Below are positions 19,171 to 41,090 of a stretch of 64,000 nt of DNA, in pieces; position 1 is the stretch's first letter, and the number at the start of each line of letters is the position of its first letter. Position numbers and translations under genes: made by a program. Under the pieces are notes generated by a model, which ran no database searches, was not told the origin of the DNA, and saw only the letters and a list, made by a program, of their open reading frames with translations. Location: assembly GCF_006442975.2 (NCBI RefSeq), contig NZ_CP083954.1, positions 2,797,501-2,861,500 on the forward strand. The letters run 5' to 3'. Source of the stretch: Mesorhizobium sp. B2-1-1. Its GTDB lineage: Bacteria; Pseudomonadota; Alphaproteobacteria; Rhizobiales; Rhizobiaceae.

Positions 19171-19210
19171 TTAAGCCCGGGAAGCGGGCAAACAAAAGAG
19201 AGGAACGAAC

Positions 19211-20272
19211 ATGCGCATGCCTGACTTTACTGCCCTGCTGACGGCGACGGCCGTCTTCACCTCCGCACTTACTTTTGCCGCCAAGGCCGATGAAGTGCAC
19301 GTGCTCAACTGGAAGGGCTACGGCGCCGACGAGCCATGGGCGATCGCCGCCTTCGAGAAGGCGACCGGCCATAAGGTGGTCAACGACTTCTTCAATTCCG
19401 AACAGGAAATGCTGACCAAGATCCGCACCAATCCCGGCCTCTATGACGTCGTCATGATCAACGCCGCCTTCAACGACCAGGCGATGGCTGAAAAGCTGAT
19501 CCAGCCGATCGACACCTCCAAGCTGCCCAACTATGCCGATATCAGCAAGGACAAGGCGAACTCGCCGATGCTCGACCATGACGGCAAGGTCTATGGCGTG
19601 CCGTGGGTGTGGGGCCTGACCGCCCTTGCCATCAACGAAAAGTCCTTCGACAAGCCGCCGACGTCGATCGCCGAAATGTGGAATCCCGCCCACAAGGGCC
19701 GCGTCGTCATCCGCGACGACGCCGTCGAGGCGGTGCAGTTCGGCGCCATCGCGACGGGCCAGAACATCAACGACATCAAGGATATGGACGCGGTCAAGAC
19801 GAAGCTCACCTCGCTGATGCCGCAGATCAAGACCTTCTGGAGCTCGGAGAACGACTGGAACCAGATGGTGGCTTCCAACCAGATCGACATCGGCACCTAT
19901 TGGAGCGGTTCGGCCGACCGCGCCAAGACGCATTTCAAGCTGCCGGTCTCGCTCGTGATCCCGCAGGAAGGCGCCGTCGCCTGGCTGGACGCCTTCTCCA
20001 TCCCGGTCGGCTCCAAGAATGTCGCGGGCGCCGAAGCCTTCATCAATTACATGATCGATCCGAAATTCTATGTCGAATGGGTCACCAAGGTCGGTGCACC
20101 GGTGTCGGCCAACACCAAGGCGGTGGAAGCGTTGCCCGAGGATTCGTTCAACCGCAAGGTGATGGGTGATCCCACAGTCGCCAAGCGCATCCAGTTCCAG
20201 GCTCCGATCACCGATGCGCAGCGCGAAGCTTATCTTACGCTCTGGCAGCAGCTCAAGGTCGACGTGAAGTAA
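19211..20272 (+). CDS. Polyamine-type ABC substrate-binding protein
   Basis: A 353-residue periplasmic protein of the PotD/PotF group. A Sec signal covers residues 1-26 (TALLTATAVFTSALTFAAKA). The mature start DEVHVLNWKGYGADEPWAI has the NW...Y pattern of PotD-type proteins, and KVYGVPWVWGLTALAINEK (about 119-137) lines the binding cleft. PotD-like proteins bind polyamines but also many other compounds, and here the operon has a glycohydrolase and a kinase, so the ligand need not be a polyamine. GAGAGGAACGAAC precedes the ATG. Confidence 0.85.
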   Translation: MRMPDFTALLTATAVFTSALTFAAKADEVHVLNWKGYGADEPWAIAAFEKATGHKVVNDFFNSEQEMLTKIRTNPGLYDVVMINAAFNDQAMAEKLIQPIDTSKLPNYADISKDKANSPMLDHDGKVYGVPWVWGLTALAINEKSFDKPPTSIAEMWNPAHKGRVVIRDDAVEAVQFGAIATGQNINDIKDMDAVKTKLTSLMPQIKTFWSSENDWNQMVASNQIDIGTYWSGSADRAKTHFKLPVSLVIPQEGAVAWLDAFSIPVGSKNVAGAEAFINYMIDPKFYVEWVTKVGAPVSANTKAVEALPEDSFNRKVMGDPTVAKRIQFQAPITDAQREAYLTLWQQLKVDVK

Positions 20273-20337
20273 AACCCGCGCCAGGGCCAGCCGGCGTTCG
20301 CGCCGGTTGGTCCTTCCAATCCGGGGAGGAGGATAGC

Positions 20338-21207
20338 ATGGCAGCAGAGGGTGCGGTCGCAGTGCGCGGCGGGCTGAGGTCGGCACTGCCGCTGCTGGCG
20401 CCCGCCTATCTCTGGCTGACGGTGGCGATCTTCCTGCCGTTGTCGGCCATGGTGTTCTTCTCGTTCATGACCGACCTGCCGCTGACGGGAAAGCCGTGGG
20501 CGTTCACGCTTGGCAACTACGCCGCCTTCTTCTCGCAGAACCTTTACCTGACGCTGCTGCTCGCCTCGCTGCGCCTCGGCCTCGAGGTGACCTTGTGGTG
20601 CATCGTCATCGGCTATCCCGCGGCTTATGTACTGGCCAAGGTGCTGAAGGGGCGCAGCCGCGAGGCGATCTTCCTGCTCGTCATCCTGCCGTTCTGGTCG
20701 AACGGGCTGGTGCGCATCTTCTCCTGGGCGATGGTTCTGCGCGAAGGTGGCATTCTCGACACCGCGCTCAACGCTGTGCTGCCGTTCAAGATCAACATCG
20801 ACCTCATGTATTCCTATCCGGCGATCATCATCGGACTGGTGCACTCCTATGTGCCCTACATGGTGCTGACCTGTTATCTCACTTTGCAGGCGATCGACGA
20901 TTCATTGCTCGAGGCCGGACGCTCGCTCGGCGCCTCGCGGCTGCAGGTGCTGAAGCGGGTCATCATCCCGCTGTCGATGCCGGGCCTGGTGGCGGGCGCG
21001 GCCCTCATATTCGTGCCCGTCGTCGGCTCCTTCATGGAGCCGCGGATCCTCGGCGGCCGCAGCGGCACCTTTTACGGCACGGTGATCGAGGACCAGTTCG
21101 TCGCCGTGTTCAACTGGCCGCTGGGGGCCGCACTCTCCTTCATTCTGCTGGCCGTCGTGCTGATCATTCTGGCGCTGGCCGCACCGGTGCTGCGGAGGGT
21201 GGCGTGA
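20338..21207 (+). CDS. Polyamine-type ABC permease, PotB-like
   Basis: A 289-residue inner-membrane permease with six predicted helices. The first is LLAPAYLWLTVAIFLPLSAM and the last is ALSFILLAVVLIILALAAPVL. The EAA loop (LLEAGRSLGASRLQVLKRVI, about 193-212) contacts the ATPase. GGGGAGGAGGATAGC upstream gives a strong start at 20338. It would pair with the PotC-like permease that starts on its own stop codon (TGATG). Same importer as the preceding binding protein. Confidence 0.88.
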   Translation: MAAEGAVAVRGGLRSALPLLAPAYLWLTVAIFLPLSAMVFFSFMTDLPLTGKPWAFTLGNYAAFFSQNLYLTLLLASLRLGLEVTLWCIVIGYPAAYVLAKVLKGRSREAIFLLVILPFWSNGLVRIFSWAMVLREGGILDTALNAVLPFKINIDLMYSYPAIIIGLVHSYVPYMVLTCYLTLQAIDDSLLEAGRSLGASRLQVLKRVIIPLSMPGLVAGAALIFVPVVGSFMEPRILGGRSGTFYGTVIEDQFVAVFNWPLGAALSFILLAVVLIILALAAPVLRRVA

Positions 21208-21995
21208 TGGCGACGACGCGTATCCTGGAGTGGCTCGGCCGCTTCTATATCGCGGTGCTGCTCGCCTTCCTGTATTTGCCCATCATTATCATGGCGCTGA
21301 TGTCGTTCAACGTCTCGCCATTCTACCAGCTGCCGTTCGAGTGGACGACGGAATGGTACGCCTCGCTGTGGCAGAACGACCAGCTCATCGCCGCCACCTG
21401 GAACAGCATCGAGATCGCCGTCATCACCACGGTCATCTCGACCGTGCTCGGCTCGGCGGCGTCCCTGGCGCTCTACCGCAATGAATTCCGCGGCAAGAAA
21501 TTCCTGCAGGCGCTGTTGTTCCCACCGATCGCCATTCCCTGGCTGATCACCGGCACGGCGATGCTGATCTTCTTCTTCGGCATCGGCATTGGACGCGGCC
21601 TGTTCGCCATCCTGCTCGGCCATGTCGCGCTGGCGCTGCCCTATGTCATCGTCGTCGTCTCGGCCCGGCTGCAAACCTTCGCGCCGGAGTTGGAAGAGGC
21701 GGCACGCTCGCTCGGGGCCAATCAGTGGCAGGTGACGAACCGGGTTACGCTGCCGTGGATCATGCCGGGTGTGATCGCGGGCGGCTTGTTTGCGTTCGCC
21801 GTGTCGTTCGATCAGTTCGTGGTGTCCTACTTCCTGGCGACGCCGGGGCAGACGACGCTGCCGGTCGAGATCTACGCCGCGATCCGCAAGGGTTTCACGC
21901 CCGAGATCAACGCGGTCTCCACCATCATAATCGTGGTGTCAATGGCGCTGATGCTGCTCACAGCGCGCTTCTTCAAATTCGGCGGAGAGAAATAA
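21207..21995 (+). CDS. Polyamine-type ABC permease, PotC-like
   Basis: A 262-residue permease with about six helices (FYIAVLLAFLYLPIIIMALM at the start, STIIIVVSMALMLLTARFF at the end) and the EAA loop ELEEAARSLGANQWQVTNRV. Its ATG overlaps the PotB-like stop by one base, and its TAA overlaps the ATPase ATG by one base. The second permease half completes the heterodimeric channel usual for this transporter group. Confidence 0.88.
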   Translation: MATTRILEWLGRFYIAVLLAFLYLPIIIMALMSFNVSPFYQLPFEWTTEWYASLWQNDQLIAATWNSIEIAVITTVISTVLGSAASLALYRNEFRGKKFLQALLFPPIAIPWLITGTAMLIFFFGIGIGRGLFAILLGHVALALPYVIVVVSARLQTFAPELEEAARSLGANQWQVTNRVTLPWIMPGVIAGGLFAFAVSFDQFVVSYFLATPGQTTLPVEIYAAIRKGFTPEINAVSTIIIVVSMALMLLTARFFKFGGEK

Positions 21996-23059
21996 TGGCG
22001 GGCGTCCAGGTATCAAACGTCTCGCGCAGCTTCGGCGCGCACAAGGCGTTGGACGACGTCTCGATCGATTTCGTAGATGGCGGCTTCTACGCGCTGCTTG
22101 GGCCATCAGGCAGCGGCAAGACCACGCTGCTCAGGCAAATCGCCGGCTTCGATTTTCCCGACAGCGGCCGCATCGCCATCGGCGGCGAGAGCGTCGAGCG
22201 GGTACCGGTCGAGAAGCGGCGCATCGGCATGGTGTTCCAGAACTACGCGCTGTTCCCCAATATGAGCGTCGCCGACAATGTCGCCTTCGGCCTGTCGGTG
22301 CGCGGCGAGGCCAAGGCGGTGATTGCCACCGAGGTGCAACGCGCGCTCGACCTCGTTCAGCTCGGCTCGCTCGGCGGTCGCAAGCCGCATCAGCTCTCCG
22401 GCGGCCAGCGCCAGCGGGTCGCGCTGGCGCGCGCCATCGTCACCAAGCCACGCGTGCTTTTGCTCGACGAGCCGCTCGGCGCGCTCGACAAGGCGCTGCG
22501 CGTCGACATGCAAATCGAGCTCAAGCGCATCCAGCGCGAGATCGGCATCACAACCATTTTCGTCACCCACGACCAGGAAGAGGCGCTGACGATGAGCGAC
22601 CGCATCGGTATCTTGCGCGATGGCCGGCTGGTGCAGGAAGGGCCGCCGGAGGAGATCTACGACAGGCCGAAAAGCGAATTCGCCGCCATCTTCCTCGGGG
22701 ATGCCAACATCTTTCGCGGCGATACCACCGGCAACGGCATCCGCTTGGCGGACGGCACGACGATCGCCGCCGGGGCCGGCGCCAGGCTTGCCGCCGGCGC
22801 AAAGGCAAGCTGCGCCGTGCGTCCGGAGCGTATTCGGATTGCCCTGGATGCCGGAACTTCGGGCGGCGATGCCAACATACTGAAGGGCCAGGTTTGCAAA
22901 CGCATCTTCGCCGGCAACAACAGCACCTACTTTGTCGAGCGTGCCGGCCAGACGCTGAAGGTCATCGTCCAGAACACCGGCGCTGACAGGCTGGCGGAAG
23001 GTCAGCATGTCGTACTACGCTGGTCCCCGCAGAGCACGGTGTTGATCCCTGCGGGGTAG
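21995..23059 (+). CDS. Polyamine-type ABC ATPase, PotA-like
   Basis: A 354-residue ATPase. Walker A is GPSGSGKTT (about 36-44), the Q loop is VFQNYALFPNMSVADN, the signature is LSGGQRQRVALARA, Walker B is VLLLDEPLGALDK and the switch region is FVTHDQEEALTMSDR. Residues from about 240 are the TOBE-type C-terminal domain found in PotA and MalK, which couples or regulates transport. It is the last transporter gene of the operon; the AcnX genes follow after 58 bases on the same strand. Confidence 0.9.
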   Translation: MAGVQVSNVSRSFGAHKALDDVSIDFVDGGFYALLGPSGSGKTTLLRQIAGFDFPDSGRIAIGGESVERVPVEKRRIGMVFQNYALFPNMSVADNVAFGLSVRGEAKAVIATEVQRALDLVQLGSLGGRKPHQLSGGQRQRVALARAIVTKPRVLLLDEPLGALDKALRVDMQIELKRIQREIGITTIFVTHDQEEALTMSDRIGILRDGRLVQEGPPEEIYDRPKSEFAAIFLGDANIFRGDTTGNGIRLADGTTIAAGAGARLAAGAKASCAVRPERIRIALDAGTSGGDANILKGQVCKRIFAGNNSTYFVERAGQTLKVIVQNTGADRLAEGQHVVLRWSPQSTVLIPAG

Positions 23060-30499: not shown

Positions 30500-31528
30500 T
30501 CAGATCTCTGGGATGTTCTCCTTGAAGATCACCTGGAGCCTCGGCTGGTGCAATTCGTAAGGCAGTCTCCGGACCGCATGGGTCAAGGTGTTGAGCGCTT
30601 CGCGCGCTTCGACGCGCGGGTTCTGGTCGATGACCGCGTCGAGCGTGCCGTCGAGCAGAAGCTCCTTGGTGCCTTCGGTTACCTCATGGCCGAGGAAAAC
30701 CATCGAGATCGCACGGCCGCGCTCCTTGAGCGCGCGGGCAATGCCGGTGTTGCCCGCGCCGACATTGTAGATCGCGGCCAGGTCGGGGTGCCGCTCCAGA
30801 AGGGCTGATGCCTCCGAATAGGCCTTTTCGCGGTCGTCAAGCATCTCGCGCATTTCGACGATCTCCAGATTGGGCGATTCCTCGGCCAATATGTGCCGGA
30901 ATCCCATCTCGCGTTCCTCATGGCCGCGATAGGAGAGCGAGCCGGCGAACAGCGCCACCTTGCCAGGACGTTCCGAGCCCATGAAACGGTTGAGCAGGTA
31001 GCCGGCCAGCCGCCCGGCGGCGCGGTTGTCGATGCCGATATACGCGACCCTTGGCACATGCAGGATGTCGGAGGCGATTGTCACCACCTTGACGTCGTTG
31101 GCCGACAGCGAGCGGATGGCCTCGCGCACCGTTGGATGGTCGAGCGCGATGACCCCAACGCCCTGCGTCTGGCCGCGCAGATCCTGCAAAAGGCGTGCGA
31201 GCCGGTCGGGATTGAAACCCTCAATGGTGGTGATATGGACATCGAGATCCGGCCGCGCCAAGGCTTGGGCTTCGATGTGGCGATGCAGCATCTTGATGAA
31301 GGAATTGGTGCCGGCCGGCAGCGCGAAGTCGAGCCGGATGACATCGCCGGACAAGGGCTTGAGAGGTGCCCCGTTCGCGCCTTCGGCGATGTAGCCAAGA
31401 CGCTGCGCCATTTCGAGCACGATTTCGCGCGTGCGCGCCCGCACCCCCGGACGGTTGTTGAGAACACGGTCGACGGTGGCGGCGGAAACGCCGGCTTCCC
31501 GGGCTATGTCAGTCAGGGTGGAACGCAC
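30500..31528 (-). CDS. LacI-family transcriptional regulator
   Basis: A 342-residue repressor. Residues 3-50 are the LacI helix-turn-helix (TLTDIAREAGVSAATVDRVL, then the hinge helix around GYIAEGANG). The rest is a periplasmic-binding-protein-like sensor (IRLDFALPAGTNSFIKMLH at its start). The ATVDRVLN variant marks the subgroup that often controls inositol- or ribose-type transport genes. The start is a GTG at 31528 with GAGGAG upstream. It is divergent from the moc-like operon across a 459-base region with inverted repeats, so it is the likely repressor of that operon. Confidence 0.87.
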   Translation of the reverse strand: MRSTLTDIAREAGVSAATVDRVLNNRPGVRARTREIVLEMAQRLGYIAEGANGAPLKPLSGDVIRLDFALPAGTNSFIKMLHRHIEAQALARPDLDVHITTIEGFNPDRLARLLQDLRGQTQGVGVIALDHPTVREAIRSLSANDVKVVTIASDILHVPRVAYIGIDNRAAGRLAGYLLNRFMGSERPGKVALFAGSLSYRGHEEREMGFRHILAEESPNLEIVEMREMLDDREKAYSEASALLERHPDLAAIYNVGAGNTGIARALKERGRAISMVFLGHEVTEGTKELLLDGTLDAVIDQNPRVEAREALNTLTHAVRRLPYELHQPRLQVIFKENIPEI

Positions 31529-31612
31529 CGTCTTTCATCTCCTCAATGCATCAGGATCACGCAATGCCGACCGCCGGCCGGGTGGCGACTGCTCTTCGCC
31601 ATCCGCGATTCT

Positions 31613-31836
31613 GATGGGAAATGATGTATCCGGCCTTGGCCGATGCGCAAGCCGCCGGGCTAAATCAGATCGCCCGGCAGGATCGCATCGCCGTGGGAAG
31701 ATAGATTTCCCATCAAATCGAGGCATCAGGAGCGGTGTATGGATTCCGGTATGACGCATTCCTTCGCCTTTCTGCTAGATTGTGAGGTGTTTTGATTATT
31801 CATGATGTTGACAGCCTTCCGTGACTGCCGTCAATA
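31613..31836 (+). promoter_or_regulatory. Divergent control region with inverted repeats and promoter
   Basis: GATGGGAAAT (31613-31622) and its reverse complement ATTTCCCATC (31705-31714) lie about 80 bases apart, a possible pair of LacI-type operators able to loop. Further on, TTGACA (31808-31813) and TCAATA (31831-31836), with a 17-base spacer, form a sigma-70-like promoter for the rightward operon. Which site the LacI protein binds is not proven. The remaining bases from 31529 to 31987 contain no gene. Confidence 0.4.
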
Positions 31837-31987
31837 TCCCTCATGGGCTCGTGGAGGAAACATTGGCCCCGAGGGAGGGAATTCCAATGCCTGATCCGAT
31901 CCGCATGCCGCGGCTCCGGTTGCCAGCATCTGGAGGCGCGTTGGCGAGATGACGACGGCCGCGAAGACAGAATTCTGGGAGGAAGAC

Positions 31988-33085
31988 ATGGCAGGCAAAG
32001 GCTTCGAGCCGGACGTGAAGGTTCGCACCAGCGAATTCAAGATCGGCTGCGTCGGCGCCGGCATGATCATGGCTGAATGCCATCTCGCGGCCTATAAGGA
32101 AGCAGGCTTTCCTGTCGTGGCGATCGCTTCGCGTACAAGGGCGAATGCGCAGAAGGTCGCCATGCGCTGGGGCATTCCGACCGTCCACGACACGCCGGAA
32201 CGACTGATCGAGGATCCGCAAGTCGAGATCATCGACCTGGCTTTCCCGCCGGACCAGCAGCCGGCGCTGATCCGCCACGCGCTGAAGCAGAAGCACATCA
32301 AGGCGATCCTGGCGCAGAAGCCGCTGGCGCTGTCGGTCGAGGAAGCGGTGAAGCTGCGCGACGAGGCGGCGAAGGCGGGCAAGATCCTCTCGGTCAACCA
32401 GAACATGCGCTACGACCAGTCGATGCGCGTGCTGAAGCAGATCATCGACAGCGGCGCGCTCGGCGACGTCGTCTTCGCGCAGATCGACATGCATGCGATC
32501 CCGCACTGGCAAGGCTTCCTCGAGGAGTACGACCGGCTGACGCTTGCCAACATGAGCGTGCATCATCTCGACGTGCTGCGTTTCCTGTTCGGCGATCCCG
32601 ATGAGATCACCACGCTGACGCGCAAGGATCCGCGCACGACTTTCGAACACACCGACGGCATCACCGTCTCGACGCTGCGCTTCCCGTCCGGCGTGCTCGC
32701 CGTGTCGCTGGAGGATGTCTGGTCCGGTCCGCGGCAAGAAGGCTACAAGGACGACCAGCACATCAACTGGCGCGTCGACGGCACCAAGGGCGTCGCCAAG
32801 GGCACGATCGGCTGGCCGACCGGTGCGGCCTCGACGCTCACCTATGCCTCGGCCGAGACAACGGATGGCGAGTGGGTCAGCCCAAGCTGGGACACGATGT
32901 GGTTCCCGCATGCTTTCATCGGCGTGATGGAACAACTCCAGCACGCCGTGAAGACAGGCACGCCACCGGCGCTTTCCGTCGCCGACAACGTCAAGACCAT
33001 GGCGCTGGTAGAGGCGGGCTATCGCTCGATCGCTTCGGGCCGCACGGTCAAGCTTTCCGAAATCTCGACAAACCCGATCAATTGA
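31988..33085 (+). CDS. Gfo/Idh/MocA-family oxidoreductase, MocA-like
   Basis: A 365-residue NAD(P)-dependent dehydrogenase. The Rossmann motif is GCVGAGMIMAECHLAAYKEA (about 20-39), and AILAQKPLALSVEEAVKL carries the QKP variant of the EKP motif that positions the catalytic Lys. The C-terminal beta-sheet domain follows (NMSVHHLDVLRFLFGDPDEI). GGGAGGAAGAC before the ATG at 31988 makes this start better than 31949. The family oxidises sugars and inositols; MocA of rhizobia is needed for rhizopine (3-O-methyl-scyllo-inosamine) breakdown. It is the first gene of the operon that also has MocC-, MocB-, MocD- and MocE-like genes. Confidence 0.85.
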   Translation: MAGKGFEPDVKVRTSEFKIGCVGAGMIMAECHLAAYKEAGFPVVAIASRTRANAQKVAMRWGIPTVHDTPERLIEDPQVEIIDLAFPPDQQPALIRHALKQKHIKAILAQKPLALSVEEAVKLRDEAAKAGKILSVNQNMRYDQSMRVLKQIIDSGALGDVVFAQIDMHAIPHWQGFLEEYDRLTLANMSVHHLDVLRFLFGDPDEITTLTRKDPRTTFEHTDGITVSTLRFPSGVLAVSLEDVWSGPRQEGYKDDQHINWRVDGTKGVAKGTIGWPTGAASTLTYASAETTDGEWVSPSWDTMWFPHAFIGVMEQLQHAVKTGTPPALSVADNVKTMALVEAGYRSIASGRTVKLSEISTNPIN

Positions 33086-33127
33086 AATCACTGGTAACTG
33101 AATCGCTTACAGGGAGGAATTCACACC

Positions 33128-34042
33128 ATGATGCAGGCAGGTATTTTCACGGGCTATTTCCCGTACGGCCTCGAAGAGACGGCGAAGAAGATCCGCGGGC
33201 TCGGTTTCAACACGGTGCAGCTCGACCTGCATTTCAGGGATATCGACCTGTCCGCCGGGCAGATCACCAAGGACAAGGCCAAGACCGTGCGCGATGTCTT
33301 CCGCGACCACAACCTGCCGGTCTGCTGCGTGTCGGGCTACACCAACATCATCCATCCCGACAAGGCAGAGCGCGACAAGCGCGTCGGCTACCTCAAGGAG
33401 ATCATCCGCAACGCCCGCCATTTCGGCTCGCCCTACGTGATCTCGGAAACCGGCACCTACAACACCGAATCCGACTGGGTGCACCACCCCAAGAACAAGA
33501 CCGAGGAGGGGTTCGAGGAATGCCGCAAGGTGATATCAGATCTTGCCCAGACGGCCTATGACCATGGCGCGGTCTTCCTGCTCGAAACCTATGTCAACAA
33601 CGTCGTCGGCTCGGTCGAGGAGACGGTCAAGATGTTCGCGCAGGTCGATCACCCGGGCCTTGGCCTGCTGATGGACCCGACCAACTATTTCGAGACGCAC
33701 AACATCGACCGGATGGACCAGATCCTGAACCAGGTGTTCGACACGTTGACGGACAAGATCAGGATAGCGCATGCCAAGGACGTCAAGCGCTCGGGCAGCG
33801 ACAAGTCGGAAAAGCACGCCGACATCGGCGATGAGGATGCCATGGAAAGCCACACCTTCCGCGGCGTCGGCGAGATCGAACTGCCGGCGCCCGGCCTCGG
33901 CTCGCTCAACTACGACCTTTATCTTCAGCGGCTTGCCGAGAAGCACCCGAACATTCCGGTCATCATCGAGCACCTGTCGGAAGACGACGTGCCGCGCGCC
34001 AAGACATTCCTCGACGGGAAGTTCCGCGCCAACGGCCTGTGA
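33128..34042 (+). CDS. Xylose isomerase-like sugar isomerase/epimerase, MocC-like
   Basis: A 304-residue TIM-barrel protein of the AP-endonuclease-2/xylose-isomerase-like group. FTGYFPYGLEETAKKIRGLG leads strand one, and YVISETGTYN (about 101-110) and FLLETYVNN (about 142-150) carry the metal-binding Glu residues. MDPTNYFE and HAKDVKRSG supply further ligands, and a final Glu lies in VIIEHLSEDD. These enzymes isomerise or dehydrate sugars and inositol derivatives; MocC of the rhizopine pathway belongs to this fold. A clear ribosome site (GGGAGGAAT) precedes 33128. Confidence 0.83.
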   Translation: MMQAGIFTGYFPYGLEETAKKIRGLGFNTVQLDLHFRDIDLSAGQITKDKAKTVRDVFRDHNLPVCCVSGYTNIIHPDKAERDKRVGYLKEIIRNARHFGSPYVISETGTYNTESDWVHHPKNKTEEGFEECRKVISDLAQTAYDHGAVFLLETYVNNVVGSVEETVKMFAQVDHPGLGLLMDPTNYFETHNIDRMDQILNQVFDTLTDKIRIAHAKDVKRSGSDKSEKHADIGDEDAMESHTFRGVGEIELPAPGLGSLNYDLYLQRLAEKHPNIPVIIEHLSEDDVPRAKTFLDGKFRANGL

Positions 34043-34097
34043 CGGCCGGCCGCGCCGCCTGTGCATGGCGGCACGGCTCCAAACAAGGAGGAAAGCA

Positions 34098-35042
34098 ATG
34101 TTGAAATTTGCATTGAAATTGGCGGCCGCCGCGACTGTGCTTGCCGGCATCGCGTTCGGGTCGGCCGCGCAGGCACAGGACGGCCAGAAGACCTTTTATC
34201 TACTGTCGCATGGCGGCCCGTCGGATGCGTTCTGGATCGACTGGAACGCCGGCGCCACAAAGGCCTGCGACCAGCTCAAGGTGACCTGCAAGATCTCCTT
34301 CAGCGGCGGCGACATGGCGGCGCAGAAGGAAGCCTTCAATTCCGCGCTTGCCGCCAAGCCCGATGGCATCGCCACCACCTCGGCGCAGCCTGGCCTGTGG
34401 ACCGAGGAGGTCAAGGCGGCGAAGGCCGCCGGCATCCCGATCGTGTTCTTCAACACCGACGATCCGGCGACGGGGCGGCAGGCCTATGTCGGCGCCGACC
34501 TGAAGGAGGCCGGCACGATCTGGGCAAAGTATCTTGTCGACCACAAAATGGTGAAGCAGGGTGACAAGGTCTTTCTGCCGGTCGAAGTCCCCGGCGCAAG
34601 CTACCAGCAGCTCGAGACCGAAGGCATCGCCAGCGTCTTCGATCCGCTCGGCATCAAATATGACGTGGTCGATTGCGGCACCGATCCGGCCGGCATCATC
34701 GCCAAGATGACCGACTATATGGTTGCCAACAATCCGCCGGCGATCATCGCGCTCGGCGATTCCGTGGCGGCCAGCGTCAAGCGGGTCTTCGACGGCGCCG
34801 GCGTGCCGGCAGGCAAAATCCCGGTCGTCGGCTGGGGCAATTCGAAGGAGACGGCGCAAGCCGTCCAGGACGGTTTCGTCAACGCTGCGGCCTGGCAGTA
34901 CCCATCGGCGCAGGGCTTCATGCCGGTAGCACTGCTCGGGCTTGCCGCCTCGGGCGAGCCAATCGGCTACGACATCCACACTTTCGGTCTCTACGACGCG
35001 TCGAGCGTCGAGCCGATCCTCAAACTCTACGACAAGAAGTGA
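34098..35042 (+). CDS. Ribose-type ABC substrate-binding protein, MocB-like
   Basis: A 314-residue periplasmic protein of the sugar-binding PBP1 type. A signal peptide covers residues 1-26 (LAAAATVLAGIAFGSAAQA). TFYLLSHGGPSDAFWIDWNA starts the fold with the SHG-type ligand loop, and ALGDSVAASVKRVFDGAG and GWGNSKETAQAV complete it. AAGGAGGAAAGCA precedes the ATG. MocB, the rhizopine-binding protein, is of this type, and context makes an inositol or inosamine-like ligand likely; ribose-type sugars cannot be excluded. Confidence 0.85.
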   Translation: MLKFALKLAAAATVLAGIAFGSAAQAQDGQKTFYLLSHGGPSDAFWIDWNAGATKACDQLKVTCKISFSGGDMAAQKEAFNSALAAKPDGIATTSAQPGLWTEEVKAAKAAGIPIVFFNTDDPATGRQAYVGADLKEAGTIWAKYLVDHKMVKQGDKVFLPVEVPGASYQQLETEGIASVFDPLGIKYDVVDCGTDPAGIIAKMTDYMVANNPPAIIALGDSVAASVKRVFDGAGVPAGKIPVVGWGNSKETAQAVQDGFVNAAAWQYPSAQGFMPVALLGLAASGEPIGYDIHTFGLYDASSVEPILKLYDKK

Positions 35043-35050
35043 AAATGGAC

Positions 35051-35072
35051 GCCCGCCGCGCCGGCGGCGGGC
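35051..35072 (+). promoter_or_regulatory. Intercistronic GC hairpin
   Basis: GCCCGCCGC (35051-35059) and GCGGCGGGC (35064-35072) form a perfect 9-bp stem with a 4-base loop, 8 bases after the binding-protein stop, without a following T run. Such hairpins between a binding-protein gene and its permease gene usually stabilise the upstream mRNA and reduce downstream expression. Confidence 0.6.
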
Positions 35073-35085
35073 GCCTGCAAACAGC

Positions 35086-36105
35086 ATGGTTCAGAACGTC
35101 ATGGCAGTCACCGCGGAAGAGGGCGCAGCAAGCGCCAGGAGCAGGTCGAGGCTGATGCGCTCGCCGCAATTTTCCTCGTTCATCATCCTCGTCGTCCTTC
35201 TCGTGGTATTCGCGATCGCGGACGGCAATTTCCTGTCGCCGCTCAACATCTCCAACATGATGGCGTTCCTGCCCGAGCTCGGCATCATCGCGCTCGGCAT
35301 GACGCTGCTTCTGACGGCCGGCGAGTTCGACCTGTCGGTCGGTGCCGTATTCGGCCTGGCGCCAGTGGTCGTGATGCTTCTGGTGCAGAACGGCGGGGTG
35401 GATATCGGCGTCGCCCTTCTGGCTGGACTTTTACTGTGCATCGCGATCGGGGCGATCAATGGGGTGATCGTCACCAAGATCGGCATCTCGTCATTCCTGG
35501 TGACCCTGTCCATGCTGCTGATCGTGCGTGGCGCGGCCCTCTACATCACGCAGGGTTTCCCGCTGAAGTCGTGGGACCAGCCTGGCTTCTTCGTGACGCT
35601 GCTTGCCGGCAGCTTCAATATCGGCTCGTTCCGCTTCTACACCTCGCTGTGGTGGTTCGTCGGCCTGTCGCTGCTGGCAATCTACGTCCTGCGCTATGCC
35701 AAGCTCGGCAACTGGATCAGCGCCATCGGTTCCAACCGCAACGCGGCAGTGGCCCGCGGCGTGCCGGCGGACGCCGTCAAGATATGGCTGTTCATCGCCA
35801 CCTCGGTGCTGGCCGGGCTTGCCGGCATGATCAGCGCCTTTCGTATTTCGGCCGCTTCGCCGGTGGCCGGCACAGGCTATGAGCTCGAAGTGATCGCCAT
35901 GGTGGTGGTTGGCGGCACGGCGCTGACCGGCGGACGCGGCACCATCCTGGGCACCATCGTCGGCGCGCTGATGCTGCGCGCCATCCGTAACGGCATCGTG
36001 CTCGTCGGCGTGCCCGGCCTCGCCTACAACATCTTCGTCGGCGTGATCATCCTCGCCATGCTCATCCTGCATGCTTTGCTGCAGAAAAACGCGGCAAGGA
36101 GCTGA
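35086..36105 (+). CDS. Ribose-type ABC permease
   Basis: A 339-residue BPD_transp_2 permease with eight to ten helices. LLLTAGEFDLSVGAVFGLAP has the family's DLSVG motif, and VVVGGTALTGGRGTILGTIV the GG...GRGT motif near the end. I keep the ATG at 35086, although the ATG at 35101 (MAVTAEEG) is equally possible. It belongs with the binding protein before it and the ATPase 2 bases after it. It may function as a homodimer because only one permease gene is present. Confidence 0.88.
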   Translation: MVQNVMAVTAEEGAASARSRSRLMRSPQFSSFIILVVLLVVFAIADGNFLSPLNISNMMAFLPELGIIALGMTLLLTAGEFDLSVGAVFGLAPVVVMLLVQNGGVDIGVALLAGLLLCIAIGAINGVIVTKIGISSFLVTLSMLLIVRGAALYITQGFPLKSWDQPGFFVTLLAGSFNIGSFRFYTSLWWFVGLSLLAIYVLRYAKLGNWISAIGSNRNAAVARGVPADAVKIWLFIATSVLAGLAGMISAFRISAASPVAGTGYELEVIAMVVVGGTALTGGRGTILGTIVGALMLRAIRNGIVLVGVPGLAYNIFVGVIILAMLILHALLQKNAARS

Positions 36106-36107
36106 CT

Positions 36108-36884
36108 ATGATGCAAGAAGTGCTTCGGCTGCAGAACCTGCAAAAATCCTTCGGCAGCGTGCGCGCGCTGAAGAATGCCTCGCTGACGCTGAGAGAAGGC
36201 GAGATAGTGGCCCTGCTCGGCGACAATGGCGCCGGCAAATCGACGCTGATCAAGGCGATCTCCGGCGTCTTCCCGGTCGATCGCGGTGACATCTATGTGC
36301 GCGGGCAGAAGGTTTCGATCCGCTCGACGCGCGACGCGATGGATCTCGGCATCGAGACCATCCACCAGGATACGTCGCTGGCGCCGGATCTCAGTATCGC
36401 GCGCAACCTCTTCCTCGGCCGCGAACCGGTCAATTTCAAATGGTTGGGCGTGTTTGCGCCGCTCGATCTCGCCAAGCTGCGCGATGCTGCCTCCTCCCTG
36501 CTGAAGCGCGTCGGCATCTCGAAGAAACTCGACGCCGACGCGCTGGTCTCAACGCTGTCGGGCGGCGAGCGCCAGTCGATCGCCATTTCGCGGGCCATGC
36601 AGTTCGCCGCCAAGGTGATCATCCTCGACGAGCCGACCAACAATCTCGGCGTCGAGGAAACCCATGGCGTGCTGCGCTTCGTCAAGGAGATGCGTCAGGC
36701 CGGCCATTCGGTGCTGCTCATCACCCACAACATCCATCACGTGTTCGAGGTTGCCGACCGCATCATCGTCATGCGCCGCGGCGAGATCGTTGCCGAGCAG
36801 ACGGTCGCCGATACCGATCTGCTGACCGTGGAAAGCATCATCACCGGCGCCGACCTGTCGGCTCTGATGAAGAGGGCGCAGTGA
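36108..36884 (+). CDS. Ribose-type ABC ATPase, single nucleotide-binding domain
   Basis: A 258-residue ATPase with one domain, as in FrcA rather than the duplicated RbsA. Walker A is GDNGAGKST (about 38-46), the Q loop is IHQDTSLAPDLSIARN, the signature is LSGGERQSIAISRA and Walker B is VIILDEPTNNLGV. The Asn-Asn in the D-loop region is slightly unusual. The switch is LLITHNIHHVFE. It powers the preceding permease. Position, spacing and strand show one operon from 31,988. Confidence 0.88.
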   Translation: MMQEVLRLQNLQKSFGSVRALKNASLTLREGEIVALLGDNGAGKSTLIKAISGVFPVDRGDIYVRGQKVSIRSTRDAMDLGIETIHQDTSLAPDLSIARNLFLGREPVNFKWLGVFAPLDLAKLRDAASSLLKRVGISKKLDADALVSTLSGGERQSIAISRAMQFAAKVIILDEPTNNLGVEETHGVLRFVKEMRQAGHSVLLITHNIHHVFEVADRIIVMRRGEIVAEQTVADTDLLTVESIITGADLSALMKRAQ

Positions 36885-36888
36885 CGGC

Positions 36889-38070
36889 ATGGTAGAGCTT
36901 TATGGCAAGACGCTCTCGCGCCGGCAGGTCTCGGAACGCTCCGGCATGCTGTCGCAGTTCGCCGGCGTGCGGCTGATGACGCTCGGCGACGGGGTGGAGC
37001 GCGGTGTCCGCATGCTGGAGTTCCGCACCGGCTCCGGCCTGCGCTTCACCGCACTCGTCGACCGCGCGCTCGACATCGCCGATTGCGACTTCAAGGGCCA
37101 GGCGATCGGCTGGCACTCGCCGGGCGGTTTTCGCAACCCCGGTCTTCACGACTATGAGGGGGAAGGGGGGCTGGCCTGGGCGCGCTCCTTTTCCGGTTTG
37201 CTGGTCACCTGCGGCCTCGACCATATACTGGGTCGGGAAGAGGTGCCGGCCGAGAACTACAACTATCCCGGCAAGAAGACCGTGATCCATTCGCTGCATG
37301 GCCGTGTCGGCACCATCCCGGCGCGGCTGACCGGCTACGGTGAGGCGTGGGACGGCGACCGCTGCGTGCTGTGGGCCGAAGGCATCGTCCAGCAATCGGC
37401 GGTATTCGGCGAGGATCTGCATCTGATCCGGCGGATCGAGGCGGATGTCGGCGGCAACGAGATCCGGCTGTCCGACCGCGTCGTGAACCATGGCTTCAAT
37501 CGCACGCCGCATATGTATTTCTACCATGTGAATGTCAGTCATCCCCTGCTTGACGAGGGCTCACGCTACCTCGCGCCAATCCGCGACGTGGTGTGGGCCG
37601 GCCATGCCGGCGAGCGCTATGAGGCGCAGAAGGTCGGCTACCGCACCGTGCCGGAACCGCGAATGGGGTTCAGCGAACAGGTCTGGCAGCATGAAATGGA
37701 CGCCGATGGAAAGGGCGAGGTACCAGTGGCGGTGGTCAACGACCGGCTCGGCCTCGGCTTCGAAATGGTGACGCGGAAAGACCAGCTGCCTTGCGCCTAT
37801 CAATGGCAGAATTTCCAGGCCGGACACTATGCGCTGGGCATCGAGCCATCGACGCATCATGTGCTCGGCGATCTCGCCGCGCGCGAACGCGGCGAAATGA
37901 TCTGGCTGGAGCATGACGAAGGCCGCGCCTACGATGCCGTGTTCCGGGTCCTGGACGGCAGGGAAGCGATCGCCGGCGCCGAAGCCAGGATTGCGGCGAT
38001 CGCCCGCCAGCCCGAACAGGATTATCCTCGGCCTTCCGGCAATTTCCGGAGACTGGCGGGCCCGGCATGA
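36889..38070 (+). CDS. DUF4432 / aldose-1-epimerase-like protein
   Basis: A 393-residue protein of the DUF4432 family with a galactose-mutarotase-like beta-sandwich. LTLGDGVERGVRMLEFRTGS and TALVDRALDIADCDFKGQAI (about 55-74) are typical, and SLHGRVGTIPARLTGYG has the central His. HMYFYHVNVSHPLL (about 204-217) contains the second His pair. It probably interconverts anomers or epimers of the imported sugar or inosose in the cytosol. It starts 4 bases after the ATPase stop. It is not part of the moc genes I recall and is an addition of this locus. Confidence 0.8.
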   Translation: MVELYGKTLSRRQVSERSGMLSQFAGVRLMTLGDGVERGVRMLEFRTGSGLRFTALVDRALDIADCDFKGQAIGWHSPGGFRNPGLHDYEGEGGLAWARSFSGLLVTCGLDHILGREEVPAENYNYPGKKTVIHSLHGRVGTIPARLTGYGEAWDGDRCVLWAEGIVQQSAVFGEDLHLIRRIEADVGGNEIRLSDRVVNHGFNRTPHMYFYHVNVSHPLLDEGSRYLAPIRDVVWAGHAGERYEAQKVGYRTVPEPRMGFSEQVWQHEMDADGKGEVPVAVVNDRLGLGFEMVTRKDQLPCAYQWQNFQAGHYALGIEPSTHHVLGDLAARERGEMIWLEHDEGRAYDAVFRVLDGREAIAGAEARIAAIARQPEQDYPRPSGNFRRLAGPA

Positions 38071-38146
38071 GCGCGACATGTATTCAAAGCAAGCCCTCCG
38101 GCCGGCGGACCGGATTGCGAGCGGTGCGAGAAGTTTGGAGGCCCGT

Positions 38147-39238
38147 GTGAAGACGATGGCAAAAAAGCGGGATTACAGCCTGGTCGGTGAAAGCACCAGG
38201 GCCGCGATCGAGACCGGCCTGGCCTCCGCCGAATGGTACCACACCGATGTCCCCCGCAAGGTGATGAAGGAGCTGATGCAGCGTTCCGACGGGCCGGCGA
38301 TCCGCGACACCATCATCTGGATTGTTGCGATCCTGGCCTCGGCCGCCGGCATCATATGGTTCTGGGGCTCATGGTGGGTGGTGCCGTTCCTATTCATCTA
38401 CGGCGTGCTCTACGGCTCGTCTAGCGACTCGCGCTGGCACGAATGCGGCCATGGCACGGCCTTCCGCACGCGCTGGATGAACGATGTCGTGTACCACATC
38501 GCCTCCTTCATGCTGATGCGCAATCCAGTGCAGTGGCGCTGGAGCCATGCCCGCCACCACACCGACACCATCATCGTCGGCCGCGATGCCGAGATCGCCG
38601 TCATGCGGCCGCCGGACCTGTTGAAGGCGGCGCTGGCCTTCACCGGCATTCTCGATTTCCGCTATTCGCTGCCGACGCTCGTGCGCCAGGCTTTCGGCAA
38701 GCTGTCCGACGAGGAAAAGAGCTATGTTCCGGAAATGGAATGGGCAAAGGCCGTGACGGCCGCGCGGTGGCATGTTGCCGTGTACATTGCGACGATCGCT
38801 GTCGCGGTCGTCCTCAGGTCATGGATACCGGTGGTGCTGATTGGTTTGCCGCGCCTCTACGGCACCTGGCACATGGTGACCACCGGCCTGCTGCAGCATA
38901 TCGGGCTGGCCGACAATGTCGTCGACCACCGGCTCAACACGCGCACCGTCTACATGAACCCGATCAGCCGGTTCATCTACTGGAACATGAACTATCATGT
39001 GGAGCACCACATGTTCCCGATGGTGCCCTATCATGCGCTGCCCAGGCTGCATGAGCTGATCAAGCACGACCTGCCCGTGCCGAACCCGTCGATGTGGCAT
39101 GCCTATCGCGAGGTCTGGCCGGTCCTGCTCAGGCAGCTGAAATACGAGGACTACTACCTCAAGCGCGAGCTGCCGCCGACGGCCAGGCCCTATCGCGGCG
39201 AATTCCATGAGTTCGACATGTCGGCGGCGGCTGAATAA
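38147..39238 (+). CDS. Fatty acid desaturase-fold membrane oxygenase, MocD-like
   Basis: A 363-residue integral membrane di-iron oxygenase. All three histidine boxes are present: HECGH (98-102), HARHH (134-138) and HVEHH (284-288). Two or more membrane helices lie at 55-92 (TIIWIVAILASAAGIIWFWG), with another pair near 208-235. GGAG at 38137 favours the GTG at 38147; the ATG at 38156 is an alternative. In rhizopine catabolism MocD is an alkane-hydroxylase/desaturase-type oxygenase that, with ferredoxin MocE, removes the O-methyl group. The Rieske gene 28 bases downstream supports that assignment. Confidence 0.82.
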   Translation: MKTMAKKRDYSLVGESTRAAIETGLASAEWYHTDVPRKVMKELMQRSDGPAIRDTIIWIVAILASAAGIIWFWGSWWVVPFLFIYGVLYGSSSDSRWHECGHGTAFRTRWMNDVVYHIASFMLMRNPVQWRWSHARHHTDTIIVGRDAEIAVMRPPDLLKAALAFTGILDFRYSLPTLVRQAFGKLSDEEKSYVPEMEWAKAVTAARWHVAVYIATIAVAVVLRSWIPVVLIGLPRLYGTWHMVTTGLLQHIGLADNVVDHRLNTRTVYMNPISRFIYWNMNYHVEHHMFPMVPYHALPRLHELIKHDLPVPNPSMWHAYREVWPVLLRQLKYEDYYLKRELPPTARPYRGEFHEFDMSAAAE

Positions 39239-39266
39239 GGATCGCGAATGGTTGCGGGAGACAGAG

Positions 39267-39578
39267 ATGGTCGATTGGATTGAAGCGTGTGCGGTGGACG
39301 ATGTCGAGGAAGAGGATGTCATCCGCTTCGACCACGGTGGCCGAACCTTCGCGATCTATCGCTCCCCGGACAATGAATTCTTCGCCACCGACGGTTTCTG
39401 CACGCATGAGAAGGCACATCTCGCCGACGGGCTGGTGATGGACGACATCATCGAATGTCCCAAGCACAATGGCCGCTTCAACTATAAGACCGGCCAGGCC
39501 AAGGGCGCGCCGGTCTGCGTCAATCTTGCGACCTATCCGGTGAAGATCGAAGCTGGGAAGGTGATGATCGAGATCTAA
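39267..39578 (+). CDS. Rieske 2Fe-2S ferredoxin, MocE-like
   Basis: A 103-residue soluble Rieske protein. Cys45-X-His47 (CTH) and Cys64-X2-His67 (CPKH) hold the [2Fe-2S] cluster in the usual C-x-H...C-x2-H form; KHNGRFNYKTGQAKGAP closes the cluster loop. GGGAGACAGAG precedes the ATG at 39267. It is the electron donor expected for the desaturase-type oxygenase just upstream, as MocE is for MocD. No reductase (MocF) is encoded in the operon, so a housekeeping ferredoxin reductase must serve. Confidence 0.88.
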   Translation: MVDWIEACAVDDVEEEDVIRFDHGGRTFAIYRSPDNEFFATDGFCTHEKAHLADGLVMDDIIECPKHNGRFNYKTGQAKGAPVCVNLATYPVKIEAGKVMIEI

Positions 39579-39627
39579 AGCGCGGCACACCGATCCGGCA
39601 CCGCGGCAAGCAAAAGAGGAACGTTTA

Positions 39628-40428
39628 ATGAGCCGAAAGAGACCGACCGTCGCCGACCTGCGCGCCATGAAAGGCAAGCGTCAGCTGACCATGCTGCGCG
39701 TGCTGACCCTGGACGAGGCGGAAGCTGCCGAGCGGGCAGGGGTCGATATCGTCTCCGTGCCGCCGGAACTCGTGCTCAACCCGCAATACCGCGATGCGGC
39801 ACCGAGCCTGTTCACCATGCCGGGAGACAATTTCTACGAAATCGGCATATCGGATGATTTCCTGCGTTGGGCTTTCCGGCTCTACAAGGCCGGCGCCGAC
39901 GCGGTCTATTGCAGCGCGGGCTACGCCACCATCAAACGCATGGCGGACGATGCCATCCCCGTCATCGGCCATGTCGGCCTCATTCCATCCCGCGCGACAT
40001 GGACCGGCGGCTTCAAGGCGGTCGGCAAGACCGCCGACACCGCCATGCAGGTGTTCGAAGCGGTGAAACAGCTCGAGGCCGCCGGCGCGATCGGCGCCGA
40101 AATCGAAGTGGTGCCGGTCGAGGTCGCCAAGGCGATCTCCGAGCGTACCTCGCTGATCATGCTGTCGATGGGCGCGGGCACCGGTTGCGACGCGCAATAT
40201 CTGTTCGCCGAAGATATCCTCGGGCAGAATCGGGGCCACATGCCACGACACTCCAAGGTCTATCGCAACTTCGCCGCTGAATATGATCGGTTGCAGGCGG
40301 AGCGGGTGGCCGCATTCTCCGAATATGTCGCCGACGTCAACAGCGGCGTCTATCCCGAGGACAGGCATGTGGTGCACATGGACCCGGCCGAGCTACGTCT
40401 GTTCCTCGACAAGGTCGGCCGGGGCTAA
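39628..40428 (+). CDS. PanB-family hydroxymethyltransferase homologue
   Basis: A 266-residue TIM-barrel protein of the ketopantoate hydroxymethyltransferase family. TVADLRAMKGKRQLTMLRVL has the start of PanB proteins (K-phi-T-x-L-T), but the usual DS[LM]G metal loop is replaced by DIVSVPPEL. IPVIGHVGLIPSRATWTGGF (about 110-129) retains the HxGxxP block of PanB, and EVVPVEVAKAISERTSLIML the Glu and later motifs. True PanB uses methylene-THF to hydroxymethylate ketoisovalerate. The divergence and operon position suggest a related one-carbon or aldol step in this pathway, possibly handling the methyl carbon released by the MocD-like enzyme. Confidence 0.75.
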   Translation: MSRKRPTVADLRAMKGKRQLTMLRVLTLDEAEAAERAGVDIVSVPPELVLNPQYRDAAPSLFTMPGDNFYEIGISDDFLRWAFRLYKAGADAVYCSAGYATIKRMADDAIPVIGHVGLIPSRATWTGGFKAVGKTADTAMQVFEAVKQLEAAGAIGAEIEVVPVEVAKAISERTSLIMLSMGAGTGCDAQYLFAEDILGQNRGHMPRHSKVYRNFAAEYDRLQAERVAAFSEYVADVNSGVYPEDRHVVHMDPAELRLFLDKVGRG

Positions 40429-40830
40429 GATCGGCTGCCAATTCCCATCGACAAGCGCGGCATGAAGCGCTTCGGCTTCGATGCCGAGCGGCCGATCCTC
40501 CTTCAGCGCCGGCACCAGCGCGCGTGTCGCCTTATGGATAGCGGCCATGCGCGGCGCCAGCGTCTGCCCGTCGCGCAGGTCGACGGCCTGGGCGGCCGCC
40601 ATCAGTTCGAAGGCGATCAACCGGCGCCACAGTGCGATCATGGCGGCGCATTTCGAAACGGCCAGCGGCGTCTGCGTGGCATGGTCCTCGACGCCCTCGG
40701 AGACGGGCAGGAAATCGAGCATCACCGGATTGGCTTTGTGGCGGATGGCGGCCAGGATCGATGTTACCGCCTTCTGCAGCGGCACGAAGCCGGCCGATGC
40801 GCCGCCGACCGGCGACAGGTATTTCGGACC
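40393..40830 (-). pseudogene. Aromatic amino-acid lyase (HutH-like) C-terminal fragment
   Basis: On the reverse strand, about 145 codons read as the C-terminal third of a histidine/aromatic amino-acid ammonia-lyase family protein: YLSPVGGASAGFVPLQKAV, DFLPVSEGVEDHATQTPLAV, then ELMAAAQAVDLRDG. The MIO-forming Ala-Ser-Gly region and the whole N-terminal two thirds are absent. Upstream it runs directly into an ornithine-cyclodeaminase fragment, so a deletion fused two genes. Its 3' end overlaps the PanB-like gene by 36 bases on the other strand. No activity is expected. Confidence 0.7.
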
Positions 40831-41090
40831 GCGCTCATCGTGCCATAGGGCACGACCAGCGTGCCACGCTTGATCCACTCGGTCTTCAGCAGCGGCTGCG
40901 GTTCCGGCAGCCGCGAGGCCTCGACGACGATGTCGGCGCCTCGACGCAACTTTGCCAGTCGGCCACAGCCTTGACCGGGTTGCCGAGATCGGTGGAGAGC
41001 CTGGCGGCAAAGCCGTCGCGGCTTTTCCGGCCGGCGCGAATGGACACGGATCTGGACGTCGCCGGCCAAATGCTGTTCAAAGCGGTCCGT
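40828..41090 (-). pseudogene. Ornithine cyclodeaminase/mu-crystallin fragment
   Basis: The reverse strand reads QHLAGDVQIRVHSRRPE in one frame, then DGFAARLSTDLGNPVKAVAD in another, then ADIVVEASRLPEPQPLLK and RGTLVVPYGTMSAV back in the first. This is the NAD-binding middle of an ornithine cyclodeaminase-family enzyme with at least two frameshifts. The N-terminal part is missing where the MFS gene begins at 41092, and the C-terminal part is replaced by the lyase fragment at about 40830. Clearly a dead gene. Confidence 0.7.

Follow-up and report, generated by a model that had tools for sequence, protein, structure and literature searches.

Mesorhizobium sp. B2-1-1 carries, within a 64,000-nucleotide (nt) stretch of its 6.18-Mb genome (here called the window), nine tightly packed + strand genes, arranged head to tail between 31949 (or 31988) and 40428, and upstream of them a divergent gene for a LacI-type regulator (Table 1). 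The last three encode a MocD-type oxygenase, a MocE-family Rieske ferredoxin, and a PanB-like protein that we call PanBL. A sequence-only reading had taken this string for a variant moc operon for the breakdown of the rhizopine 3-O-methyl-scyllo-inosamine or a related O-methyl inositol. We instead lean, on balance, toward a reading in which the operon serves the oxidative demethylation of another methylated carbohydrate-like compound and PanBL passes the resulting one-carbon (C1) unit to tetrahydrofolate (THF).

The oxygenase module is shared with rhizopine loci

We located moc loci through MocD on plasmids and obtained three rhizopine loci that bear MocR: those of Rhizobium leguminosarum A1 (pRLa11), Phyllobacterium zundukense Tri-48, and S. 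meliloti KH35c (pSymA, which lacks annotation, so that its genes were placed by tblastn). The A1 MocR scores 751 against the cut-off of 650 of NF052281, the MocR proteins of the other two loci are 86 to 87% identical to it, and the A1 MocC is of the IolE type (TIGR04379, 394.7 against a cut-off of 290). The gene order in A1 is MocC, Gfo/Idh, ChbG, MocA, MocB, MocR, MocD, MocE, MocF, PanBL, PurU; S. meliloti KH35c has the same gene set, and P. zundukense has the ChbG-to-PurU part within the stretch examined. PanBL and purU directly follow mocDEF in all three loci, so the PanB homologue of the window is not, as had been supposed, an addition to the classical set.

Compared with the A1 proteins by blastp, the window MocD is 67% identical over 357 amino acids (aa), MocE 75% over 100 aa, and PanBL 65%. 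The window thus does contain a MocD/MocE oxygenase module homologous to that of the rhizopine loci, and because of this homology O-demethylation is its likely chemistry. The rest of the operon is different. MocA is 28% identical over 205 aa to A1 MocA and scores lower with it than with another Gfo/Idh protein of the A1 locus; the binding protein (26% over 89 aa, E 5e-4) is not a MocB orthologue, and the MocC-like protein (22% over 217 aa, E 0.5) is not an orthologue of the IolE-type A1 MocC. Comparison with the Rhizobium Moc proteins therefore bears out the earlier assignment of MocD and MocE, whereas the MocA-, MocB-, and MocC-type labels hold at the superfamily level only and the description of the string as a moc rhizopine set does not stand. 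None of the 20 open reading frames scanned at and near the operon encodes a MocF- or MocR-type protein, and genome-wide nothing reaches the NF052281 cut-off (best, 405 of 650 bits). In a 65-row MocD tree, whose bootstrap did not settle and whose support values are rough, the window protein falls in a marked set of 12 rows, the other 11 of which all have PanBL and none of which comes from a moc locus.

Because MocA, MocB, and MocC are not orthologous, MocR and MocF are missing, and MocD lies outside the moc rows, the operon, as judged from its sequence, is not a rhizopine operon. Relative to rhizopine loci it has a LacI regulator, a ribose-type transporter, and a DUF4432 gene of its own and no purU behind PanBL. 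The high identity of MocD, MocE, and PanBL to their rhizopine-locus counterparts could still be taken to mean a true variant rhizopine operon degrading 3-O-methyl-scyllo-inosamine; we consider this very improbable in view of the missing orthologues and of the fact that the MocA-MocC-DUF4432 core exists elsewhere without MocDE, with an SDR tail in 11 of 20 loci (see below).

The NCBIfam model NF052284 ("rhizopine SBP") was tried as another route to moc loci and abandoned. Of 394 genomes of the taxonomic family, 7 have a protein over its cut-off. In seven such regions (L112 to L118 in our locus numbering; six of the seven passing loci plus one under the cut-off) we found no match to the window MocC, MocD, MocE, or PanBL or to the MocD of L017, a second locus of the window genome. 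NF052284 is not among the matches listed at 1e-15 for a binding protein encoded in a locus with MocR (L272:6288-7214), and its name "rhizopine binding protein" may be misassigned; MocB identity was judged by direct comparison instead.

PanBL accompanies the oxygenase in different settings

Matches to TIGR02377 were found at 83 places, distributed over 55 of 397 genomes, and the 81 outside the window genome were examined. At 39 of these 81 MocE loci PanBL is on the same strand and no more than 3.5 kb away; at 41 it is within 8 kb. Twelve MocE loci have another protein family beside MocE (6 of them with PanBL), whose sole scanned representative matches PF04116, FA_hydroxylase; the oxygenase of the module can be swapped. 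In a PanBL search across the phylum (398 genomes, E up to 1e-50), PanBL was found at 24 places in 18 genomes, none outside the window's class, and MocD, MocE, or the alternative oxygenase is close to it at 21. The remaining three comprise one with MocE ~7.4 kb off (L266), one cut by a contig end (L264), and one with no oxygenase nearby (L269).

PanBL switches between present and absent at least 7 times along the marked branches of the MocD tree, and this holds with the rhizopine rows scored as PanBL-bearing too; the link between PanBL and the oxygenase is therefore not one inherited block. Furthermore, MocD-(MocE)-PanBL recurs with other sugar modules, comprising different Gfo/Idh, TIM-barrel, and transporter sets. 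Two PanBL loci are worth recording for their neighbors. At L267 (G784:C1), MocD-MocE-MocF-PanBL lies beside a binding protein of the OpuAC type (betaine family), a hint that N-methyl compounds may be among the substrates of the module too; at L264 (G434:C72), a mannonate dehydratase (UxuA) lies within 1.4 kb behind PanBL and would be compatible with a methylated form of glucuronate as the substrate at that locus.

One-carbon genes near the module

Hydroxylated O-methyl groups collapse to formaldehyde. PanB moves a hydroxymethyl group between methylene-THF and a keto acid, FolD converts methylene-THF to formyl-THF, and PurU converts formyl-THF to formate. In a genome scan with PanBL, in which 80 of 197 confirmed loci were kept (77 of the 80 are named Mesorhizobium), purU lies directly behind PanBL in 14, and in M. 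huakuii the string is mocDEF-PanBL-purU-folD. Nitratireductor has purU behind mocDEF without PanBL. S-(hydroxymethyl)glutathione dehydrogenase is encoded near 4 of the 40 PanBL-free MocE loci (TIGR02818 above cut-off in all three of the four that were scanned) and near 0 of the 41 PanBL-bearing ones. The numbers are small; the pattern matches what would be expected of an oxygenase that makes formaldehyde and is paired with interchangeable C1 sinks. A further string without PanBL, at L212 (G574:C2), consists of purU, Gfo/Idh, MocE, a TIM barrel, and MocF.

PanBL differs from PanB at the metal site

PanBL has the PanB fold and falls under the cut-offs of both PanB models (TIGR00222, 103.4 of 207.55; NF001452, 123.9 of 272). 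Two residues, His115 and Glu160 (H136 and E181 of 1m3u), are kept in 30 of 30 aligned rows. In contrast to ketopantoate hydroxymethyltransferase, PanBL has Y94 at the position of K112 and S96 at that of E114, and Y94 is shared by 30 of 30 relatives; D84 aligns to G66, with D67 adjacent, and the Asp45 stretch, left unaligned by phmmer, looks replaced, as judged by eye only. In E. coli numbering, we take Glu114, Asp45, and Asp84 to be metal residues and Lys112 to be a substrate residue. A plain PanB for pantothenate synthesis is ruled out by a separate, above-cut-off PanB in the window genome.

Proposed pathway and competing explanations

In the pathway that we propose, the ATP-binding cassette (ABC) transporter would import the methylated carbohydrate-like compound, and MocD would hydroxylate the O-methyl carbon with electrons delivered via MocE and a reductase encoded elsewhere in the genome. 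PanBL would take the unstable hydroxymethyl product, or formaldehyde, and hand it to THF as 5,10-methylene-THF, while MocA, the MocC-like protein, and DUF4432 would process the remaining sugar skeleton. The rhizopine-locus substrate 3-O-methyl-scyllo-inosamine carries an O-methyl group, and a C1 role for PanBL is supported by gene context, with PanBL and purU lying behind mocDEF in these loci; the folate step and the substrate are what we infer beyond it. From the presence of DUF4432, a compound that has an anomeric carbon seems more likely than an inositol. Marine bacteria remove the methyl group of 6-O-methyl-galactose oxidatively by cytochrome P450. The proposed pathway resembles that system in ferredoxin-fed oxidative removal of a sugar O-methyl group and in formaldehyde disposal and differs from it in its FA_desaturase-type oxygenase and its PanB-like protein.

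Several observations weigh against this pathway. Forty of the 81 MocE loci have no PanBL within 8 kb, and L017, the second mocDEF locus of the window genome, has none either, which implies that MocD can work without PanBL; conversely, L269 has PanBL without a nearby oxygenase. The 14 purU loci all belong to one genus, and in the evenly drawn sample of 81 MocE loci purU is near just 2, one with and one without PanBL. No purU is listed behind mocDEF-PanBL in S. meliloti RCAM1115 or R. johnstonii 3841, nor does the window genome encode a close PurU (best match, 29% over residues 83-260). Formate release is therefore not general, and in the window genome the C1 unit would need biosynthesis or other routes. 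The formaldehyde dehydrogenase contrast comes from 4 loci. Finally, the loss of PanB metal-site residues could mean the loss of such catalysis.

A more specific form of the proposal, which we put forward tentatively and with less confidence than the pathway as a whole, is that PanBL may be a new folate enzyme, with a PanB fold but without the PanB metal site, that moves the MocD-made hydroxymethyl group straight to THF, so that formaldehyde would never be free. In a different arrangement, MocD would hydroxylate a C-methyl group and PanBL would remove the hydroxymethyl by retro-aldol cleavage, like PanB in reverse, to give methylene-THF. This would keep PanB's own reaction and the conserved Glu and would explain purU and folD as well, but the rhizopine loci act on an O-methyl compound and residues that hold the keto acid and metal in PanB are replaced in PanBL; we regard it as unlikely. 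Still less probable, in our judgment, is that PanBL takes no part in C1 transfer and instead works on the sugar skeleton, as a lyase or isomerase of the PEP-mutase/isocitrate-lyase superfamily. PanBL tracks the oxygenase, not any one sugar module, through varied Gfo/Idh, TIM-barrel, and transporter sets, and at L267 it is found near a betaine-type binding protein.

A second moc-like locus and the O-methyl inositol alternative

The genome carries another moc-like locus, L017 (C1:438-455 kb), in which MocD, MocE, and a MocF-type reductase are divergent from a group made up of LacI, a MocB-like binding protein (64.5% identity to MocB), a permease, an ATPase, Gfo/Idh, and SDR. Its MocF (C1:444052-445278) is the closest in the genome, 81% identical to M. 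huakuii MocF (the next are 43% and 36%), and may provide the missing reductase for the window operon. With MocF absent from the operon and the one close MocF 2.4 Mb away, at L017, the suggestion that the operon is a self-contained pathway is doubtful.

LacI/FixV homologues lie beside mocDEF in M. loti and other rhizobia (PMC3538637). PMC5789663 describes mocDEF-like genes and a mocB-like ABC operon of R. mesoamericanum that are induced by a root exudate in which pinitol is the most concentrated component. Because of these two precedents, L017 fits an O-methyl inositol locus better than the window operon does. That the window operon itself acts on pinitol, ononitol, or a similar compound, with MocDE demethylating it and MocA and MocC starting inositol breakdown, would agree with the rise of the R. 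mesoamericanum genes and with a Marivivens stretch in which MocD-MocE-PanBL occurs with an ABC transporter, iolG, and iolC. However, such loci have a MocB-like binding protein (64 to 69% identical to MocB in L017, L271, and L273), which the window operon lacks; the genome already has such a locus in L017; and a ring without an anomeric carbon needs no aldose-epimerase-like protein. We therefore hold an O-methyl inositol substrate to be improbable for the window operon.

A probable sugar-handling core with two alternative tails

Orthologues of the MocC-like protein occur at 34 places in 32 of the 397 genomes of the order. Nine of the 32 genomes, the window genome included, have them in MocE loci already identified; we examined the regions around 20 of the remaining orthologues, leaving out 3 genomes. 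Four of these 20 core loci have MocD-PanBL without MocE, 11 have DUF4432 and SDR, 5 have neither tail, and none has both; in one MocD-PanBL locus (L312) an SDR is present but distant (31%). LacI relatives from other genera (50 to 70% identity) accompany the core in 16 of the 20, whichever tail it has. LacI-MocA-MocC-DUF4432 thus appears to be a core for sugar handling that takes one of two alternative tails.

The SDR-type operons of other Rhizobiales (LacI-CUT1 transporter-Gfo/Idh-MocC-like-DUF4432-SDR-coenzyme A [CoA] transferase-hydratase) are like the window operon in LacI and in the MocA-like, MocC-like (82 to 91% identical in 10 of the 11 loci), and DUF4432 proteins. They differ in the tail, where SDR, mostly with CoA transferase and hydratase, stands in place of the window's MocD-MocE-PanBL. 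The CoA transferase and enoyl-CoA-hydratase-like genes accompany SDR in 10 of the 11 loci and are also found in Pseudosulfitobacter and S. meliloti BL225C. On a Variovorax plasmid (L120, CP063167), the MocA-MocC-DUF4432 core lies behind a different Rieske protein, a reductase-domain protein, and a glutathione S-transferase, which may form an alternative oxygenase arrangement.

Conservation and gene content of the operon

The nearest named relatives of the PanBL gene are from Mesorhizobium. Among the 80 PanBL loci, a few of which are interrupted by contig ends, the full set MocA-MocC-binding protein-permease-ATPase-DUF4432-MocD-MocE-PanBL is found in 41 (with purU behind it in 10 of these), MocA-MocC-MocD-MocE-PanBL alone in 17, and in others DUF4432 without the window-type transporter, a CUT1-type binding protein lying upstream in some. 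Most loci outside the full set have no window-type transporter, whether or not DUF4432 is present. LacI is seen in just 1 of the 80 within the flank examined, and MocE is missing in 10 of 84 loci that have both MocD and PanBL (100 loci examined). Across the 80 loci the steady part is thus MocA, the MocC-like protein, MocD, and PanBL, and the transporter and DUF4432 are variable. Chance neighborhood is ruled out by the 41 full sets and by the recurrence of the MocD-PanBL pair in other genera. In one full-set Mesorhizobium locus (L020:161-2326), two ABC ATPases, MalK-type by eye, abut MocA, and some strains may carry two transporters for a window-type operon; the window has LacI and an NMT1-type ABC set at that position.

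In the window itself, gene content and positions are as the sequence-only reading had given them, and its further observations of DUF4432, a full ABC transporter, LacI instead of a MocR-type regulator, and no MocF at the operon are confirmed. In an NCBIfam scan of the ten proteins, MocE alone exceeded its family cut-off (TIGR02377, 182.5 bits against the curated 136.15), DUF4432 had no match, and the other eight fell under theirs; the top model for MocA was IolG (95.5 of 355), and the MocC-like protein reached 18.7 of 290 bits with TIGR04379. MocD scores 116.6 with PF00487 (cut-off, 29.7) and has the His boxes HECGHG, HARHH, and HVEHH in its translation. The DUF4432 protein is the sole match to its family in the genome, and its PDB relative is 3ty1, "Hypothetical aldose 1-epimerase." Solved relatives were too distant to identify the sugar (MocA with 5uhw, a weak 96.9 bits; the MocC-like protein with tagatose 3-epimerases, 28 bits). 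Scans of 31529-31990 for a promoter and a LacI operator gave no promoter match and just two short inverted repeats.

Table 1. The LacI gene and the nine-gene operon of the window
Feature	Coordinates	Strand	Domain or family
LacI-type regulator, divergent from the operon	30500..31528	-	Pfam LacI and Peripla_BP_4
MocA-like Gfo/Idh/MocA dehydrogenase	31988..33085 (upstream ATG at 31949 possible)	+	Pfam PF01408/PF02894
MocC-like xylose-isomerase-type TIM barrel	33128..34042	+	PF01261
Sugar-type periplasmic binding protein	34098..35042	+	Peripla_BP_4
Ribose-type ABC permease	35086..36105	+	BPD_transp_2
ABC ATPase	36108..36884	+	
DUF4432, aldose-1-epimerase-like	36889..38070	+	PF14486, 308 bits
MocD-type oxygenase, three His boxes	38078..39238	+	PF00487, FA_desaturase-type
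MocE-family Rieske ferredoxin	39267..39578	+	TIGR02377
PanB-like protein (PanBL), proposed one-carbon acceptor	39628..40428	+	

Behind PanBL, the - strand of 40393-41090 holds the remnant of an aromatic amino acid lyase gene (PF00221, last quarter only) and, judged by eye, that of an ornithine-cyclodeaminase-like gene; both genes are intact behind PanBL in locus L036 (10823-12319 and 12316-13371). The ADP-ribosylglycohydrolase, binding protein, and TOBE-type ABC ATPase genes at 17138-23059 of the window match a cluster of L036 in Pfam families and order. The L036 version has a PfkB kinase and directly abuts MocA; in the window, the cluster is separated from the operon by an aconitase X gene, a flavin adenine dinucleotide (FAD) enzyme, and an ABC set of the NMT1 type.

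Implications for rhizopine and methylated-sugar breakdown

Rhizopine genes have been used to engineer plant-to-bacterium signaling, and the catabolic units given in the consulted part of that source are mocDEF, mocR, mocBA, and mocC, with PanB-like and purU not among them (PMC10107442). A term search of PMC10107442 and PMC6668481 found neither PanB-like nor purU. Among the papers listed in our literature search, none was seen to connect mocDEF with purU or a PanB-like protein; the search did not extend to the founding papers (Bahar 1998; Rossbach 1994), and earlier notice is possible.

The presence of PanB-like and purU genes behind mocDEF points to how the one-carbon unit is handled. Proteins of the PanBL group are labeled 3-methyl-2-oxobutanoate hydroxymethyltransferase in public sources; if our reading is true, these ketopantoate labels are wrong, and the proteins mark so far unrecognized methylated-sugar operons. 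If PanBL is indeed a folate enzyme that takes its hydroxymethyl group from MocD, it would add a component so far missed to the rhizopine pathway and would serve MocD-type demethylases of many methylated sugars as a general partner.

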